Of a stretch of 64,000 nucleotides of DNA, positions 54,778 through 64,000 are shown in pieces. The notes beneath the pieces were generated by a model. It saw only the letters and a program-made list of their open reading frames with translations, did not search any database and was not told where the DNA came from. The position numbers were made by a program, and so were the translations under genes. The stretch's first letter is position 1; every line of letters starts with the position of its first letter. The stretch lies in assembly GCA_963920705.1 (NCBI GenBank), contig OY987229.1, positions 17,923,728 through 17,987,727 of the forward strand, written 5' to 3'. This stretch comes from Odiellus spinosus. Lineage: Eukaryota; Arthropoda; Arachnida; Opiliones; Phalangiidae.

Positions 54778-55992
54778 ATGCTAAGTGTCCTTTTGTTAAT
54801 TGTATTATGGGAACATTCCCAAAGTGCCGTTATTTTTCAACGAGCCGAAGAGAGTGCGGTTTTAATAACAGCCTTAACGGATCCAAATTTTCAAAATGAC
54901 GTTATCACGACGTCGGATATCCCGACGGAATTACCCAAAAGCGAAGCGACGAAACCGTCACTAAGTTCCTCTTCGTTAATCATTCGCCGTAACGAATCGA
55001 GCCGGAAGTACTTGTACACGACAGAACCAGGTATTTTAATACGTGCCCATAGTAGTTACGACGACCCGGATTCGGAACCCGAATTTAAACTAACAACCGA
55101 GAAATTAGCTTACATCCTAATCGGTTCTTGTTGCGGTTTAAGTATATTATGTCTAGTAATTGTGGCCGCGAGTTTACGATGCCGGGAACATTACCAGCAT
55201 CATCGCGAAGAGAAAAAGAGTCCTTGGCCTCCTCCACCACCGGAACATCCTAGAATATACGATACCCCGAGTTTTGTGCCAGTAAGTCCCTCTTCGTACC
55301 ATTACACTTTCGCCAGACGGGCTCCGGTAAAAGAATCGCGGTCGAGAGAGTGCGAAAGTTGTCGATGTACTTGCGGAACGTGGTCCTTAGGACCAAGTAA
55401 TTTGGGTAACAGTAGTTCCGTCCCGTTATTTGGTACGGGCAGAAAAGTTTTCGGACATCGTTTACCATTCGGTACAGCATCCGCTTTGCATTTTAGTAAC
55501 GCCACTTTCGGTGCGAGACAGGCTAGTTACAGTTACAGTACGCCTCGTTCGTGCCATTGCCAAACTTTTAATTCTCCGCGCGGCGGAGATTTTAAAAGCG
55601 AAGATTCGTCGAGTACCGCGTCTTCCTCCTCCTACGATCCCGATTTCCATCCTCAATGTACTTGTATCGAACCACCGAGACGTTTAATGGAATGGGACGT
55701 GTCCCCGGATAGTTTGGACACGTCGGAAGAAACTGACGGTCCTTCGTGGCAAGCTTGTTCCTATTTGGTTGATACTTTGCATCGTCATCATCGGGAACCA
55801 TTACCGCAAACCCACGGTGCTAAAAGACATTCGGCTCCAACAAATAAATCGTCTTCGGCGGGACCTAACGCTCCCACGAGATGGAATAATGTCACCACCA
55901 ATCCGTTACGAAACGTTCAAATCAATCAAAATCCCGGTGGAACGGCGATCAGAGGCGTCTCTTGGACTTCCAATAGTGAACGATTGATTTGA
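54778..55992 (+). CDS. Type I single-pass membrane protein, family not recognised
   Basis: A 404-aa uninterrupted ORF, richer in GC and CpG than its surroundings. MLSVLLLIVLWEHSQSA is a likely signal peptide. The short, Ser/Thr-rich ectodomain (about 18-108) has one N-glycosylation sequon (Asn72-Glu-Ser). A transmembrane helix spans about 110-133 (with Cys118, Cys119 and Cys125), followed by RCREHYQHHREEKK as a positive-inside stop-transfer. The ~270-residue cytoplasmic tail contains PPPPPEHP (151-158), Cys clusters CESCRCTC (192-199), CHC (259-261) and CTC (294-296), a Ser-rich patch (277-285) and acidic/Trp segments around 305-325. The proline run could bind SH3/WW/EVH1 domains and the cysteines could bind metal or be acylated; both are inference. 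A five-codon upstream ORF (from 54,767) overlaps the start codon out of frame. ATTAAA at 56,021 is a possible poly(A) signal. I cannot name the family. Confidence 0.75.
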   Translation: MLSVLLLIVLWEHSQSAVIFQRAEESAVLITALTDPNFQNDVITTSDIPTELPKSEATKPSLSSSSLIIRRNESSRKYLYTTEPGILIRAHSSYDDPDSEPEFKLTTEKLAYILIGSCCGLSILCLVIVAASLRCREHYQHHREEKKSPWPPPPPEHPRIYDTPSFVPVSPSSYHYTFARRAPVKESRSRECESCRCTCGTWSLGPSNLGNSSSVPLFGTGRKVFGHRLPFGTASALHFSNATFGARQASYSYSTPRSCHCQTFNSPRGGDFKSEDSSSTASSSSYDPDFHPQCTCIEPPRRLMEWDVSPDSLDTSEETDGPSWQACSYLVDTLHRHHREPLPQTHGAKRHSAPTNKSSSAGPNAPTRWNNVTTNPLRNVQINQNPGGTAIRGVSWTSNSERLI

Positions 55993-56660: not shown

Positions 56661-58944
56661 TAAAGAACAACAGCAACTCCCCATAAGAGTCTGGGTCCAC
56701 GTAATGTTAAAAATTTTCGTCTCTTTTATGATAAATTCGTATTATATTATTAAAATAGGGTAGTTGGGGGATAATTTAAAGCTAAAATTCGAGCTCACAA
56801 CTGTAAATTTTGGGAATTACAACGAATGGAAGGTTTCTTCCATAATGTAAAGAATAGGAAGAATCTAAGACTTCCGTGCCGGATATGAAAGCCTTCCCCC
56901 ACACGAAAATCTTGAACGGTTATTATTTTAGATTCATAATTATGTTAGGAAAATATTAGGAAAGAATTATTTTGTAACTGCCACGGGTATAGTGCTGGCG
57001 GCAAAATGAAATTCGTATATTTTTGGTCTACTATGCCTCGAAATCCTCGAAAACGCCTGTAGAAGTGTTCCACTTGTCAAGCATTCATGCAGTAGGCTTT
57101 TGCTAGCTTTACAGGGGCCGTGCAAAGACTATATAGCTTACTTGAATAGTCTTTGGTGTATAAGAAACTCGAAAAATAAATAGAGAAATCATACCAATTA
57201 GAAGATACTGGAGTAGTATCTTTAATTTTTATTTCATATTAAACAAAACACACTTGTATAAAACGGACAAATTATTCATTTAACGCTAAGGTTTTCTACG
57301 TTTAACGTATGTCTGGTAGTTCAAGCTCAGTGGCATCTTCACACACTACACGCAATTTTGACTGGTACCAACTGCCTAGATCTTCATGGCGACGATAACC
57401 AAGATACCAGATTACGCTGCTAACGTGAACACAAGTACCTATCGTCAAACTACCACCTTTGCAATTGCAATACCAGCCTTTAATGGCATTTGCACCTGTC
57501 CCGTTCGGTACATAACGAATTAGAGCTTGGTGAACAGCTAAGGTGGAAAATTGACCAGGCAAGCGTATACGAATTAAGTCATGTTCAACTTTGGACACTT
57601 CGACGCTGAAAGAGCCGGATTTCTCTATAGTCAACGCCACATAAGATTCAGCGCGTTTCGTTTTAAAGTCGCTCATTACCACCTCACGTACATCACTTTC
57701 ACGAAGTACAGGGAAGTCTTGAAATTCACTATCCTCAATTCGTTGCCATTTAGACGGTTTGCGAAGCAGATTATCGCGCTCAACTACTTCCTTAAGAGGA
57801 TTTTCTTTCGTAGAGACTGCCAGCATTTTTTCGACGGAGTCTTCCCAGGAACCTTTAAGATGTAACTCCGGGTGGTAGGCGTTCAACAGCGCAGCAGCAA
57901 TTTGAAGAAGTTCCGGAACTAATGGTAACATATGCACAGGTATACGGTTTTGAAAAAAACGATACACCGTCTGCAAATGCCCATTCCTAACTTCAACCGG
58001 CCACCTGAGGTACGTTACTTGTCGGGAACGATTAACTTCTTGCGTGTTTACTTCCTTCTCGACTTTAGACAAGAACGAAGGCATTTGTAAATCCACACCC
58101 AGTTCAGTCAGTACGCTGTTGGAGTCTCGAAAACCGCGATCTGCCAGTACAACGTCACCAACTTGAAAGAAAGACTGGAGTTCTTCTCTCTTTTTGATAG
58201 AATGGTTTAAAATGCGCGCGTCGTTATTGCGGCCATTAGCAAAGTAGGGTCCGATTATATCTATTATGTAACCCGTAGTTGTTACCATTAACATTGGCTT
58301 GAGGATATGCTGGCCTTTGTGCACACAGAAGGATTTGTGAAGAACGGTATAGTCCTTGGATCTTCCAACCTTGATATAGGTGCCATCTACAATGGTAATA
58401 AGACAATTAGGCTTGTTGTTAGCAAAGAGTTTTACTGCTGCTCCAGATTGATGGTTTGTTATCAGATTGTCACGTGATAAGTGTTGCAGGCCAAAATGAT
58501 GTGGCACGAAATGCTCCGATAAAGCCATAATAACCGCTTTTACCGTGTTTGATACCGATCTTTCAGTTAAATGAAATAAAGTTGATAACACCTTATTGGA
58601 GATACCCAATCGTAATTTCACCAATAATACTGCTAGAGCTGTCTTCGACGAACAGCATCTGATGGTACGAATAATGTCCTCAATAGTCGAATGCAACTCT
58701 AGGAACTCGTGCAGGGACAATGAAGTTAATACTTTACAGTCTTCATCACTTTGTATGAAATTGTCAAAGCTCGGCGTCCGTAGGTCGTTAACACATTTCC
58801 TGAGGTCCTGTAATAGTTGCTCAATGTCCGTGGCAGTCATAATGGTTGATCTAGCGGAAACCTGAATTCCAGCAATTATTTCGGTGGGAAGCTCTCCGTT
58901 AACGAGGTGCGTGGAGCACATTCGGTTGTCCCGATGAATAAATA
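56661..58944 (-). repeat. Left arm of the giant inverted repeat
   Basis: 2284 bp, complementary to 59,639-61,923. Homology stops abruptly at GAATAAATA (58,936-58,944), inside the transposase reading frame. Beyond the arm the two sides share no sequence. Confidence 0.9.
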
Positions 58945-58999
58945 ATATTTTTTGCCAGCCAGGTTGGCGAAAAATAATTAAACCTGCTTTTATAAACAT
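57302..58999 (-). CDS. DDE_Tnp_4-type transposase with SWIM motif, N-terminally truncated
   Basis: An open 565-codon frame. The first ~19 residues derive from spacer sequence; from Phe20-Ile-His-Arg it matches the right copy. A helix-turn-helix region (about 120-160, LRLGISNKVLSTLFHLTERS) precedes an IS5/DDE_Tnp_4-like nuclease domain with Asp205 in IVDGTYI, Asp287 in LADRGF and Glu336 in RWPVEVRNG, the presumed catalytic triad. The C-terminal half has a SWIM-type zinc finger: Cys511-x-Cys513, Cys523-x-His525. The N-terminal zinc-binding region present in the right copy is missing. Relative to the right copy it differs by a few residues (Gly229 versus Ser, Gly250 versus Arg). An AATAAA lies about 70 nt downstream of the stop. 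Catalytic residues are intact, but loss of the N-terminal DNA-binding region probably impairs activity. Confidence 0.85.
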   Translation of the reverse strand: MFIKAGLIIFRQPGWQKILFIHRDNRMCSTHLVNGELPTEIIAGIQVSARSTIMTATDIEQLLQDLRKCVNDLRTPSFDNFIQSDEDCKVLTSLSLHEFLELHSTIEDIIRTIRCCSSKTALAVLLVKLRLGISNKVLSTLFHLTERSVSNTVKAVIMALSEHFVPHHFGLQHLSRDNLITNHQSGAAVKLFANNKPNCLITIVDGTYIKVGRSKDYTVLHKSFCVHKGQHILKPMLMVTTTGYIIDIIGPYFANGRNNDARILNHSIKKREELQSFFQVGDVVLADRGFRDSNSVLTELGVDLQMPSFLSKVEKEVNTQEVNRSRQVTYLRWPVEVRNGHLQTVYRFFQNRIPVHMLPLVPELLQIAAALLNAYHPELHLKGSWEDSVEKMLAVSTKENPLKEVVERDNLLRKPSKWQRIEDSEFQDFPVLRESDVREVVMSDFKTKRAESYVALTIEKSGSFSVEVSKVEHDLIRIRLPGQFSTLAVHQALIRYVPNGTGANAIKGWYCNCKGGSLTIGTCVHVSSVIWYLGYRRHEDLGSWYQSKLRVVCEDATELELPDIR

Positions 59000-59638
59000 T
59001 AAAAAAATTGTAATATCTGGTTTGAACCATGATCTTAAGAACTTTCCTTATCAATAACATCAATGTGAGAGTCACTTGGAATTTGGAGATGGCTCCAAAT
59101 ACATGTTACGCGTGCAATCGGAAAGTTACCAATAGTACAAGTAGAGGTATAGACACTCACGTAAAGGCTGGCTTTGCTCGTTTTCTTCGTTTTAGTAAAG
59201 GGTTATTACCACTTGTAATTAATAGCAAAACAACGAAGATTTGTTTAAAGTGCTCGGGTCTGTCACGAAAGTTTCAAACGTTCTTAAATGCTAGCAAATC
59301 GTCCTTCAGTAGTGATCATGGCTCTTCAACGTCATCGTCTTCACCACAAAAACGAAGACAAATGACGCAAGTATCTAATCCATCAACGTCAACAGTACCT
59401 GAGCCATCAACGTCCACAGTACCTGAACCAACAAAGTCCACAGTATCTAATCCATCACCGTCACCAATACCTCAGCCATCAACGTCGCAATTACCACGAA
59501 AGCGTACGTCATCAAACACTATTGCCATAAAGCACAGTTGTGTTCGGCCCCTGTCAAAGACTTGCTTCATTTGCGGTGTTAGTACACGAACCAGGGTAAA
59601 AGCCGAAGTGAGAACAAGTATATTTGTGGAAAGAGCCA
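58945..59638 (+). other. Spacer between palindrome arms
   Basis: 694 bp of single-copy sequence. It contains the start and the first ~203 codons of the right transposase copy, and, on the other strand, the first ~19 codons of the left open frame. The missing counterpart of this segment shows that the left copy was truncated before or during the inverted duplication. Confidence 0.85.
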
Positions 59639-61282
59639 TATTTATTCATCGGGACAACCGAATGTGCTCCACGCATCTCGTTAACGGAGAGCTTCCCACC
59701 GAAATAATTGCTGGAATTCAGGTTTCCGCTAGATCAACCATTATGACTGCCACGGACATTGAGCAACTATTACAGGACCTCAGGAAATGTGTTAACGACC
59801 TACGGACGCCGAGCTTTGACAACTTCATACAAAGTGATGAAGACTGTAAAGTATTAACTTCATTGTCCCTGCACGAGTTCCTAGAGTTGCATTCGACTAT
59901 TGAGGACATTATTCGTACCATCAGATGCTGTTCGTCGAAGACAGCTCTAGCAGTATTATTGGTGAAATTACGATTGGGTATCTCCAATAAGGTGTTATCA
60001 ACTTTATTTCATTTAACTGAAAGATCGGTATCAAACACGGTAAAAGCGGTTATTATGGCTTTATCGGAGCATTTCGTGCCACATCATTTTGGCCTGCAAC
60101 ACTTATCACGTGACAATCTGATAACAAACCATCAATCTGGAGCAGCAGTAAAACTCTTTGCTAACAACAAGCCTAATTGTCTTATTACCATTGTAGATGG
60201 CACCTATATCAAGGTTGGAAGATCCAAGGACTATACCGTTCTTCACAAATCCTTCTGTGTGCACAAAAGCCAGCATATCCTCAAGCCAATGTTAATGGTA
60301 ACAACTACGGGTTACATAATAGATATAATCAGACCCTACTTTGCTAATGGCCGCAATAACGACGCGCGTATTTTAAACCATTCTATCAAAAAGAGAGAAG
60401 AACTCCAGTCTTTCTTTCAAGTTGGTGACGTTGTACTGGCAGACCGCGGTTTTCGAGACTCCAACAGCGTACTGACTGAACTGGGTGTGGATTTACAAAT
60501 GCCTTCGTTCTTGTCTAAAGGCGAGAAGCAAGTAAACACGCAAGAAGTTAATCGTTCCCGACAAGTAACGTACCTCAGGTGGCCGGTTGAAGTTAGGAAT
60601 GGGCATTTGCAGACGGTGTATCGTTTTTTTTCAAAACCGTATACCTGTGCATATGTTACCATTAGTTCCGGAACTTCTTCAAATTGCTGCTGCGCTGTTG
60701 AACGCCTACCACCCGGAGTTACATCTTAAAGGTTCCTGGGAAGACTCCGTCGAAAAAATGCTGGCAGTCTCTACGAAAGAAAATCCTCTTAAGGAAGTAG
60801 TTGAGCGCGATAATCTGCTTCGCAAACCGTCTAAATGGCAACGAATTGAGGATAGTGAATTTCAAGACTTCCCTGTACTTCGTGAAAGTGATGTACGTGA
60901 GGTGGTAATGAGCGACTTTAAAACGAAACGCGCTGAATCTTATGTGGCGTTGACTATAGAGAAATCCGGCTCTTTCAGCGTCGAAGTGTCCAAAGTTGAA
61001 CATGACTTAATTCGTATACGCGTGCCTGGTCAATTTCCCACCTTAGCTGTTCACCAAGCTCTAATTCGTTATGTACCGAACGGGACAGGTGCAAATGCCA
61101 TTAAAGGCTGGTATTGCAATTGCAAAGGTGGTAGTTTGACGATAGGTACTTGTGTTCACGTTAGCAGCGTAATCTGGTATCTTGGTTATCGTCGCCATGA
61201 AGATCGAGGCAGTTGGTACCAGTCAAAATTGCGTGTAGTGTGTGAAGATGCCACTGAGCTTGAACTACCAGACATACGTTAA
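59029..61282 (+). pseudogene. DDE_Tnp_4-type transposase, frameshifted copy with full N-terminus
   Basis: Opens at Met1 (Met21 is an alternative) and includes an N-terminal Cys-x2-Cys pair (26/29) with a second pair at 72/75, a Ser/Thr/Pro-rich linker with short repeats such as STVPEPSTS (about 113-155), and a further Cys179-x2-Cys182 with Cys213 and His216 that could form a second zinc site. The catalytic region follows, with all three acidic residues before the break. A run of eight T at 60,624-60,631 (seven in the left copy) shifts the frame, ending translation at 60,729. The rest of the protein, including the SWIM motif, stays open to 61,282 in the shifted frame. The single-base homopolymer difference could be recent decay or a sequencing error. 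Confidence 0.85.
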
Positions 61283-61923
61283 ACGTAGAAAACCTTAGCG
61301 TTAAATGAATAATTTGTCCGTTTTATACAAGTGTGTTTTGTTTAATATGAAATAAAAATTAAAGATACTACTCCAGTATCTTCTAATTGGTATGATTTCT
61401 CTATTTATTTTTCGAGTTTCTTATACACCAAAGACTATTCAAGTAAGCTATATAGTCTTTGCACGGCCCCTGTAAAGCTAGCAAAAGCCTACTGCATGAA
61501 TGCTTGACAAGTGGAACACTTCTACAGGCGTTTTCGAGGATTTCGAGGCATAGTAGACCAAAAATATACGAATTTCATTTTGCCGCCAGCACTATACCCG
61601 TGGCAGTTACAAAATAATTCTTTCCTAATATTTTCCTAACATAATTATGAATCTAAAATAATAACCGTTCAAGATTTTCGTGTGGGGGAAGGCTTTCATA
61701 TCCGGCACGGAAGTCTTAGATTCTTCCTATTCTTTACATTATGGAAGAAACCTTCCATTCGTTGTAATTCCCAAAATTTACAGTTGTGAGCTCGAATTTT
61801 AGCTTTAAATTATCCCCCAACTACCCTATTTTAATAATATAATACGAATTTATCATAAAAGAGACGAAAATTTTTAACATTACGTGGACCCAGACTCTTA
61901 TGGGGAGTTGCTGTTGTTCTTTA
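59639..61923 (+). repeat. Right arm of the giant inverted repeat
   Basis: 2285 bp, complementary to the left arm with scattered mismatches and one extra T. After the stop codon, AATAAA at about 61,350 and a GATACT...AGTATC hairpin (about 61,364-61,380) are mirrored in the left arm. Confidence 0.9.
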
Positions 61924-64000
61924 CCAGAGACCCGTACATAATAAATAAGGAGTTGCGAACTATCCAATCCCCTACGTTTATTTTTTAATAGAACTCTGCA
62001 AACAGGAATACAAATATTTTAATTTATCTAATTTCTTATTAACGAAAAATAAACTTTTTCACGGACGGTCGACTGCATGATTTGGTGATAATTAGCCGAC
62101 CGTCCGTGTCAAAGACACTAAGAAATTCAAATATGTATTTTACATATTCGTTCGCGAGCAGTGTTGTAATGAAGTTGTATCTGTGGCGTATTGATACACA
62201 ACATTAAACCTCACACGGGATTCTAAATAGGCTTTTTTTAGAACATTAGTATATATCATGGGGAACTAATGACTACTGACGACAATAGACTTCGAATAAT
62301 TATACCCCGGAAATAATTAAACTTAACGATCTTTCCAAAAGAAAGTAAAAAGATAATTAAGTTTTAAGTTCACTAGACTGTACAGTGCCTCAACATGGGC
62401 CCCTATATATATGTATATTTGTATATTTTTGGTTTGAATTGCCAGAACAATGTCCCGCTAAGAGGATAAATTCGGATAACAAAAGGAATTTGACATCAAA
62501 AGAAAGAACTTGGTTCTTTTTTAACTATACATCATTGATATTATTACGAAGTCAAACTCTCGCTTATCACAACGCTAGAGCCATTATGTCTGTAGTGTTT
62601 TCGTCTACTGAGCGTAGCGTGAAACTAACGACAAAGACTATTGTTAAGATATGAAAAAAACTCAAGACAATACTATATGACCACTATATACGTCAAATAT
62701 CAAAGTGATTCTCATCAAAGGGTAGATGACAAGGAAAAAGTTAAGATAATTCATACACGATAAGGTTTCTTAATCAAATACAAGGCCATATCAATTGTAG
62801 TTAAGACGGGGTTCTTACACGACCTGGATAATCGTGAAAAGTCAGTGAATTTGAAAATGGGCTATAAGTTAGCGAATTTCAAAATTAGCCCAGGGTACAG
62901 GTCAAGGAAATGTTTATGAAAGGCTGACCTTTTAATTGTAATAATTATTTTAAGTTGAAATATTCGAGTAAAGATTTTATTCTGAGAAAAAACAATTAGT
63001 ATCGACCCAGATTGTTGAAACTGTGTCAAATAACTTAGAGAAAAAGTGTGCATTGCGGGAAGGGGGCCTTTCCTACTTCCTCCTATTTACTTCTGGTATT
63101 ATTCTTTTTCATTATCCCCTTTAAATAAGATTAATATTAATTTTAAAGTAGATTAGTTTAAATAGGATCTAACATATTCCTTTTTTCCATTATACACGGT
63201 AATTATAAACAAATATTAATCATTTAAGAAAGACCTGAAGTTCTTCCGACTTTCAACGTCCCTTTCATACGTGAAATAGCTCAATTAGAAAGTGGCCAAA
63301 ATGTTGAAATAATTTTTTTTTTTTATATAAAGAATTCGTTGTAAACCTTTTTCCCCCTGGAAGTTTAATTTGTCGAACGTGACTGAAGGCCGCGAATCAT
63401 GTCGTTTCTCAACGCATCAGTGATTGACAAAATCTAATTAAGATAGCAGGTCTTTTACTCAAATATAACCCTATACTTGCCTATAACTTCATCTCAAAGT
63501 TAAATTTTATCCAAGATGAAAATGCATCGCTATTAAAAGGCGAACCCCGTGATATTTAGATCATATATCTTATACGCTTTTTAGCCCGTGACTACGCTAC
63601 CCATTGGTCTTGGACAATTTCAAAAAACTAAACGTATTCAGTGAAAACCTTACGGAACAAGAGAGTTGAATGACCACTAGCATCTCTTGTTACGCATCAG
63701 AGCTTTTTAAACGAATTTTCAGATAACATACCGACATGTTCCTAAACTATACTTTTGTTTGCGAGCACTGTTGCAAAACATCGAATACTAACGCGAATTA
63801 ATACACAATGTTGTACGTAATAGGAGAAAAAGTAGTTCGGTAAAAACTACTTTTGTATGACAAGAGTATCGAGATAAGCACCGGGAAGTGAACATTTTAG
63901 GCATGGACAAATACGTTTTACTGATAATCAAATATGGTTCGCTTAAGGTGATGCTAGTTAAACCTAACCATTAAGGTATATAACCAATAATATAGTTCAG
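61924..64000. other. Intergenic, no gene recognised
   Basis: AT-rich with random short open frames. Two inverted copies of the AACTACTTTTATTCCCT-family repeat are recognisable (about 62,150-62,215 and 63,755-63,860). A TTCATTATCCCCTTTAAA block near 63,108 is an end of the GGGATAATGAA family. No sorting-nexin C-terminal exon was seen here. Confidence 0.5.

Follow-up and report, generated by a model that had tools for sequence, protein, structure and literature searches.

A family of giant palindromes in Odiellus spinosus, probably a Spy-type DNA transposon that moves as a palindrome

We analysed a 64,000-nucleotide (nt) stretch of the Odiellus spinosus genome (assembly GCA_963920705.1, contig OY987229.1, positions 17,923,728 to 17,987,727; hereafter the window), which contains a 5255-bp palindromic element with transposase sequence in both of its arms. 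The palindrome is real and is a member of a large family. The family is probably a Spy-type cut-and-paste DNA transposon, the mobile unit of which is the giant palindrome itself. Its traits have known counterparts: Spy transposons for the target, the gene content and the type of transposase, foldback elements for the long arms, and palindrome revision for the centred deletions.

In the window, inverted arms at 56661-58944 and 59639-61923 surround an interval of 694 bp and are 99.5% identical (0.53% difference across 2285 aligned positions), in agreement with a preliminary description of two near-identical arms of about 2.28 kb. Its claim that one and the same transposon end lies at either extremity was confirmed as well; the extent that it gave, 56661..61923, holds for the palindrome but not for its boundaries, as the unit proper spans 56665..61919, and AAA (56662..56664) and TTT (61920..61922) are the halves of a split AAATTT target. 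We number the half-element outward from the symmetry axis (H coordinates), with 2982 bp to the target TTT. The left arm (56665..58944, minus strand) is then the inverted 3′ part of a half-element, H2982 to H702, with its 5′ 0.7 kb gone, and the right arm (59639..61919, plus strand), complementary to it, covers H702-H2982. The interval (58945..59638, plus strand), described earlier as a unique spacer, is nothing foreign. In other copies the same 694 bp run on into the arm without a break; they make up the 5′ portion of the right half-element, H8-H701, with the N-terminal coding sequence and the region upstream of it, and have been lost from the left arm. The deletion junction at the palindrome centre (58943..58944) joins H702 on the left to about H6 on the right, with a 2-bp overlap (TA). 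Tandem repeats of 24 bp (59346..59495, plus strand) lie in the N-terminal coding part; their spacing is wider in locus L010, suggesting repeat-number variation.

The 443-Mb genome (286 contigs, labelled C1, C4 and so on) was searched with an exact 35-mer of the outer end, which gave 648 matches (329 + 319), against 0 for the reversed control. Among the first 100 of the 648 listed matches, 94 formed 47 outward-facing −/+ pairs and 6 were lone, together representing 52 elements; 46 of the 47 pairs were 2.29-5.97 kb long and one was 8.9 kb. Arm sequence of the opposite strand was found beside the junction in 44 of the 52 elements (14 read whole, 30 by junction), including all 5 elements behind lone ends. 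The remaining 8 are known as inverted end pairs only, and an end pair alone proves identical ends, nothing more. One-armed elements were not seen among the 52, 8 of them being known from end pairs alone. Halving the 648 exact matches suggests that the genome may hold roughly 320 copies. The burst looks recent, as the preliminary description had suspected for the window element: the pooled difference was 1.06% between arms within elements and 0.99% between elements, with gap positions counted, some elements entered twice and same-class copies among the between-element pairs. Separately, two pairs of outer ends lie 8.9 kb (C1:19826055-19834961) and 28.5 kb (C1:18756132-18784646) apart and are possibly palindromes with other insertions inside. 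One insertion (L073, C17:1773990-1774150) adjoins a short (CCTAA)n-type tract, which resembles the arthropod TTAGG telomere repeat.

One form of the family is a near-perfect palindrome of about 5.96 kb with no spacer, its axis at GAC|GTC and a transposase gene in each 2.98-kb half. Full-length copies were located at C14 10775728-10781692 and C16 7333686-7339650 (each 5965 bp including AA/TT), and a third at C1 25505861-25511825. The C14 and C16 copies, of which the centre ±200 bp and the ends but not the arm interiors were read, are symmetric for about 200 bp on each side of the axis, bar two common point differences; they have arm markers in common and differ in their flanks. A perfect 52-bp centre is retained at 11 loci, and among the 47 end pairs none is longer than the full form except the 8.9-kb one. 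The spacer-less near-perfect palindrome appears to be the parent, or ancestral, form.

Revised palindromes recur at different loci. The 36-mer spanning the window junction is present at exactly three loci (on C4, C5 and C18) with three different flank pairs, and the other two loci of this class (L021 and L023) are 100% identical to the window right arm over 2194 bp, broken reading frame included. The commonest junction of the family has 65 exact matches on 24 contigs, two of them inside a single element (L174). The same junction at three loci with different flanks indicates that revised palindromes jumped again, which bears out the earlier idea that the unit could move as a foldback. Since the broken right frame is common to all three copies and the left arm lacks its first 0.7 kb, the window class has probably multiplied with transposase made elsewhere, by intact relatives.

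The insertion site was deduced from flanks and empty sites. Read outward, 97% of 70 distinct flanks begin with T, and AAA/TTT stand at the ends. In 24 end pairs, 17 had no target duplication and 7 had matches of 2-4 bp, compatible with an A/T-rich target. One C2 insertion is flanked by repeat sequence, of which seven paralogous empty copies hold AATT (5), AATA (1) or AA (1) exactly at the joint, that is, four extra bases in 6 of 7; for a C18 insertion, two diverged satellite units are only roughly compatible with an AAATTT target. Together, flanks and empty sites place the ends between AAA and TTT without duplication. Two other readings of the site were discarded: the flanks of the window element hint at a TA duplication, which fails in most other end pairs, and a YA|TR target was superseded by AAATTT from the empty sites.

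The transposase gene in each complete half points outward and encodes 750 amino acids (aa) when intact, as it is in 11 of 14 complete arms tested. In the window, the left frame (57302..58999, minus strand, 565 aa) lacks the N-terminus, its first codons being spacer-derived. The right frame (59029..60729, plus strand, 566 aa) has the N-terminus and is frameshifted near 60,630; the C-terminal part, with a CxC-x9-CxH motif, continues in another frame (60587..61282, plus strand). This right half is as first described. Pfam placed DDE_Tnp_4 in both window frames (2.5e-18, 66.6 bits against a cutoff of 24.8), and HTH_Tnp_4, seen in the left frame too, stayed under its cutoff (2e-5, 24.5 bits against 27). 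For the left copy, an unbroken catalytic region without N-terminus was therefore rightly noted, but the SWIM region claimed with it gave no Pfam match in the window transposase; the C-terminal motif looks SWIM-like by eye. The N-terminal part gave no THAP match in Pfam at E values up to 10, a range in which HMMER filters drop most matches above 0.1. A search of Protein Data Bank sequences returned nothing useful (four matches, all with E of at least 0.64). The element has a single gene: with introns ignored, its other open reading frames (ORFs) of at least 60 aa are all at most 94 aa, on the opposite strand and overlapping the transposase.

These features were compared with described superfamilies. 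Spy transposons insert at AAATTT without target duplication (PMC11304231, PMC4482050), and the present family resembles Spy, within the PHIS superfamily, in its PHIS-type DDE transposase, single gene, AAATTT target, lack of duplication and recent burst within the genome of an animal; the DDE_Tnp_4 match by itself is not specific to Spy. Unlike the five assayed Spy elements, in which terminal inverted repeats (TIRs) of 15-467 bp surround one gene (PMC11304231), the present family has the entire 2.98-kb gene unit in the place of the 'TIR', and two copies of the gene in head-to-head order. No word beginning 'palindrom' occurs in the main text of PMC11304231 or PMC4482050. ISL2EU elements resemble the family in their related transposase superfamily, but are described as duplicating AT and ending in GG; they have a THAP domain and, for the most part, a second gene, YqaJ (PMC4482050). 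Here the ends are GAACAACAG, not GG, and no AT duplication, THAP match or second ORF was found; ISL2EU membership was rejected. PIF/Harbinger membership was rejected likewise, as the 3-bp TWA duplication is missing: a 3-bp match (TTA) occurred in 1 of 24 pairs.

DNA at the axis is missing from almost every copy that was read, and more than 30 revised forms carry deletions at or around it. Junctions were parsed at 82 of 86 loci, comprising the 30 best spacer matches (L021-L050) and a set taken from listed matches (L098-L153); the three window-class loci and L153 failed the parse criteria. The raw 30-mer classes numbered 32, of which 30 had a crossing of at most 20. A hand count, in which one-armed loci were dropped, the perfect-centre class and L131/L143 were split and the point variant L126 was merged, gave 34 palindromic classes. 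Since each parsed locus had been selected because one of its arms retains the axis-proximal end, the test lies in where the deletion of the other arm starts: this was at most 22 bp from the axis in 27 of the 34 classes, whereas a uniform spread of starts along 2.98 kb would give about 0.3. First far breakpoints ranged from H16 to H2342; several of the 27 classes (L028, L035, L044, L098 and L102) begin with a short gap, which in some is followed by others. Among 30 measured junctions, 18 had overlaps of 1-4 bp, 2 were blunt, 6 had inserts of 1-5 nt and 3 had inserts of 19-21 nt, the thirtieth (L117) being mis-measured owing to a point difference. Inverted copies of the centre occur at some junctions (L045, L131, L143 and L012/L016/L018), and one junction, at H1058, is found with one centre in L137 and L139 and with an added inverted centre in the L012 type (27 matches combined). 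Axis-centred deletions with end-joining junctions, the signature of centre breakage, are therefore present where one axis-proximal end is kept, elements cut on both sides being left aside.

In the Spy-type reading, the transposase would pair the two identical outer ends and move the whole palindromic unit. The long palindrome would fold at its axis and be nicked at the tip, and end joining would trim one side; such trimming would remove the central symmetry and stabilise the copy, and the copy so altered could then go on moving, in cis or in trans. We infer the origin of the deletions, and likewise that of the founding palindrome. Several points weigh against this account. Neither transposition nor breakage was observed; the founding event was not seen, and a search confined to this family found no ordinary two-ended ancestor. 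Some junction classes do not count as separate events, since several have the H1058 junction in common, and the loci used for deletion starts were selected for retaining one axis-proximal end. Moreover, 25 of the 52 elements have no exact 5′ end, and in the 14 of these read fully either both arms are cut, at H302-H2396, or the centre is complex, so that further or different deletions are needed.

Interrupted gap repair is the main rival of tip breakage, or its partner process. After excision, the broken host ends would copy the palindrome inward, starting from its two identical ends and often picking the wrong one. Folding of the new strand would halt them at the axis or slightly beyond, and they would then be joined. 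This would also explain the elements cut on both sides, agrees with the short overlaps at the joins, and is favoured by two loci at which symmetry has been re-made. In L174 (C4:5494379-5498574), a head-to-head join at H491/H266 unites two short-arm halves that both belong to the dominant class, and just one of them carries an additional 45-bp deletion. L162 (C1:2065110) is a 2.29-kb near-perfect palindrome, 2286 of its 2294 positions matching its own reverse complement, and has the same derived deletion junction in both halves. These structures indicate that symmetry can be re-created from halves, whether through copying from one arm to the other, gap repair from the wrong end or inverted fusion. 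However, the tight clustering at the axis is not predicted by gap repair itself, unless synthesis stops there, and a palindromic transgene in the mouse was revised at its centre without any transposase (PMC8701086). We regard gap repair as a serious but less probable source of the central deletions.

Another scheme, in which inverted fusion during transposition turns a one-armed element into a new palindrome each time, is unlikely. L162 and L174 do show that halves can give rise to new symmetric joins, and 3 of the 82 parsed loci (L024, L025 and L034) are one-armed over the roughly 1.4 kb examined: they are joined to unrelated DNA and start at the axis or 72 bp past it. Two probes placed at expected ends (L158 and L159) contained no end; L025 is one-armed over the examined stretch, and the element at C1:15346247 is shorter than assumed. 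Against new fusion stand the lack of any one-armed element among the 52 listed, 8 of them known from end pairs alone, and the equal arm-to-arm and between-element differences, which argue against sister arms. Deletion from an existing palindrome is also simpler, because most parsed classes have one axis in common and many keep both its sides ahead of the deletion. In a related scheme, which we consider rather improbable, palindrome formation is part of multiplication: a half with one outer end would become two-ended through a hairpin or inverted fusion, the half being the replicating unit. If so, L162, L174 and the one-armed copies starting at the axis would be traces of the process.

Ongoing gene conversion, put forward in the preliminary description as a cause of near identity, would account for arms that are about 99% identical and could have symmetrised L162. 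It is very improbable as the force that keeps arms alike: the arms within an element differ as much as elements do from each other (1.06% versus 0.99%), so the arms are not homogenised, and 31 minority variants are common to both arms of an element against 445 unshared. The assembly artefact also raised there is very unlikely: palindromic reads (missed-adapter foldbacks) are a known artefact type, but the flanks of 24 end pairs are not mirror images (8-19 of 40 positions mirrored), exact ends abut AAA/TTT, and identical junctions recur at three unlinked loci and in 65 matches on 24 contigs.

Among foldback-like elements, Galileo (P superfamily, PMC4168063) and Tetris (PMC4079207) are likewise dominated by very long inverted arms that vary in length and structure by copy; here, too, long inverted arms form most of the element. 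Unlike in Galileo, where the longest arms (4.2-4.7 kb) occur in a copy without a transposase segment (PMC4168063), and in Tetris, which is described without a conserved ORF (PMC4079207), a transposase gene lies inside each complete arm. Short palindromic MITE-like elements, known for example from Anopheles and reported before that for C. elegans and Drosophila (PMC3212995), are also transposon families formed of palindromic repeats; those clusters measure 430-1678 nt in total (PMC3212995), whereas the present elements reach about 5.96 kb with a transposase gene per half. The deletions resemble centre-break revision of a 15.4-kb transgene palindrome in the mouse, where deletions at the symmetry point abolish central symmetry and make the palindrome more stable; deletions accounted for 93% of 118 rearrangements, and stability rose 25-fold once symmetry was lost (PMC8701086). 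Unlike that transgene, the palindrome here is a natural mobile element, and its revised forms therefore multiply and many junctions are kept in one genome. The literature titles and beginnings of abstracts that were listed gave no transposon that moves as a palindrome and has its full transposase gene in each of the two arms, in a coverage that leaves out most subscription journals and is no proof of absence.

Two further features of the window lie outside the element. Immediately to its right, at 62054-62114, is a 21-nt imperfect inverted repeat with a 19-nt loop; to its left, at 54778-55992, a 404-aa open frame has a likely membrane segment by eye and weak Pfam matches below cutoff (YbgS, E 0.029; FAM176, E 0.26).

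Long perfect palindromes are unstable in cells (PMC8701086), yet one with a transposase gene in each half has reached hundreds of sites in this genome. The family is a natural collection of palindrome-revision junctions within one genome. The origin of foldback elements has been attributed to gene loss and end lengthening (as cited in PMC4079207); the palindromes of O. spinosus suggest one route from an autonomous transposon to foldback elements.

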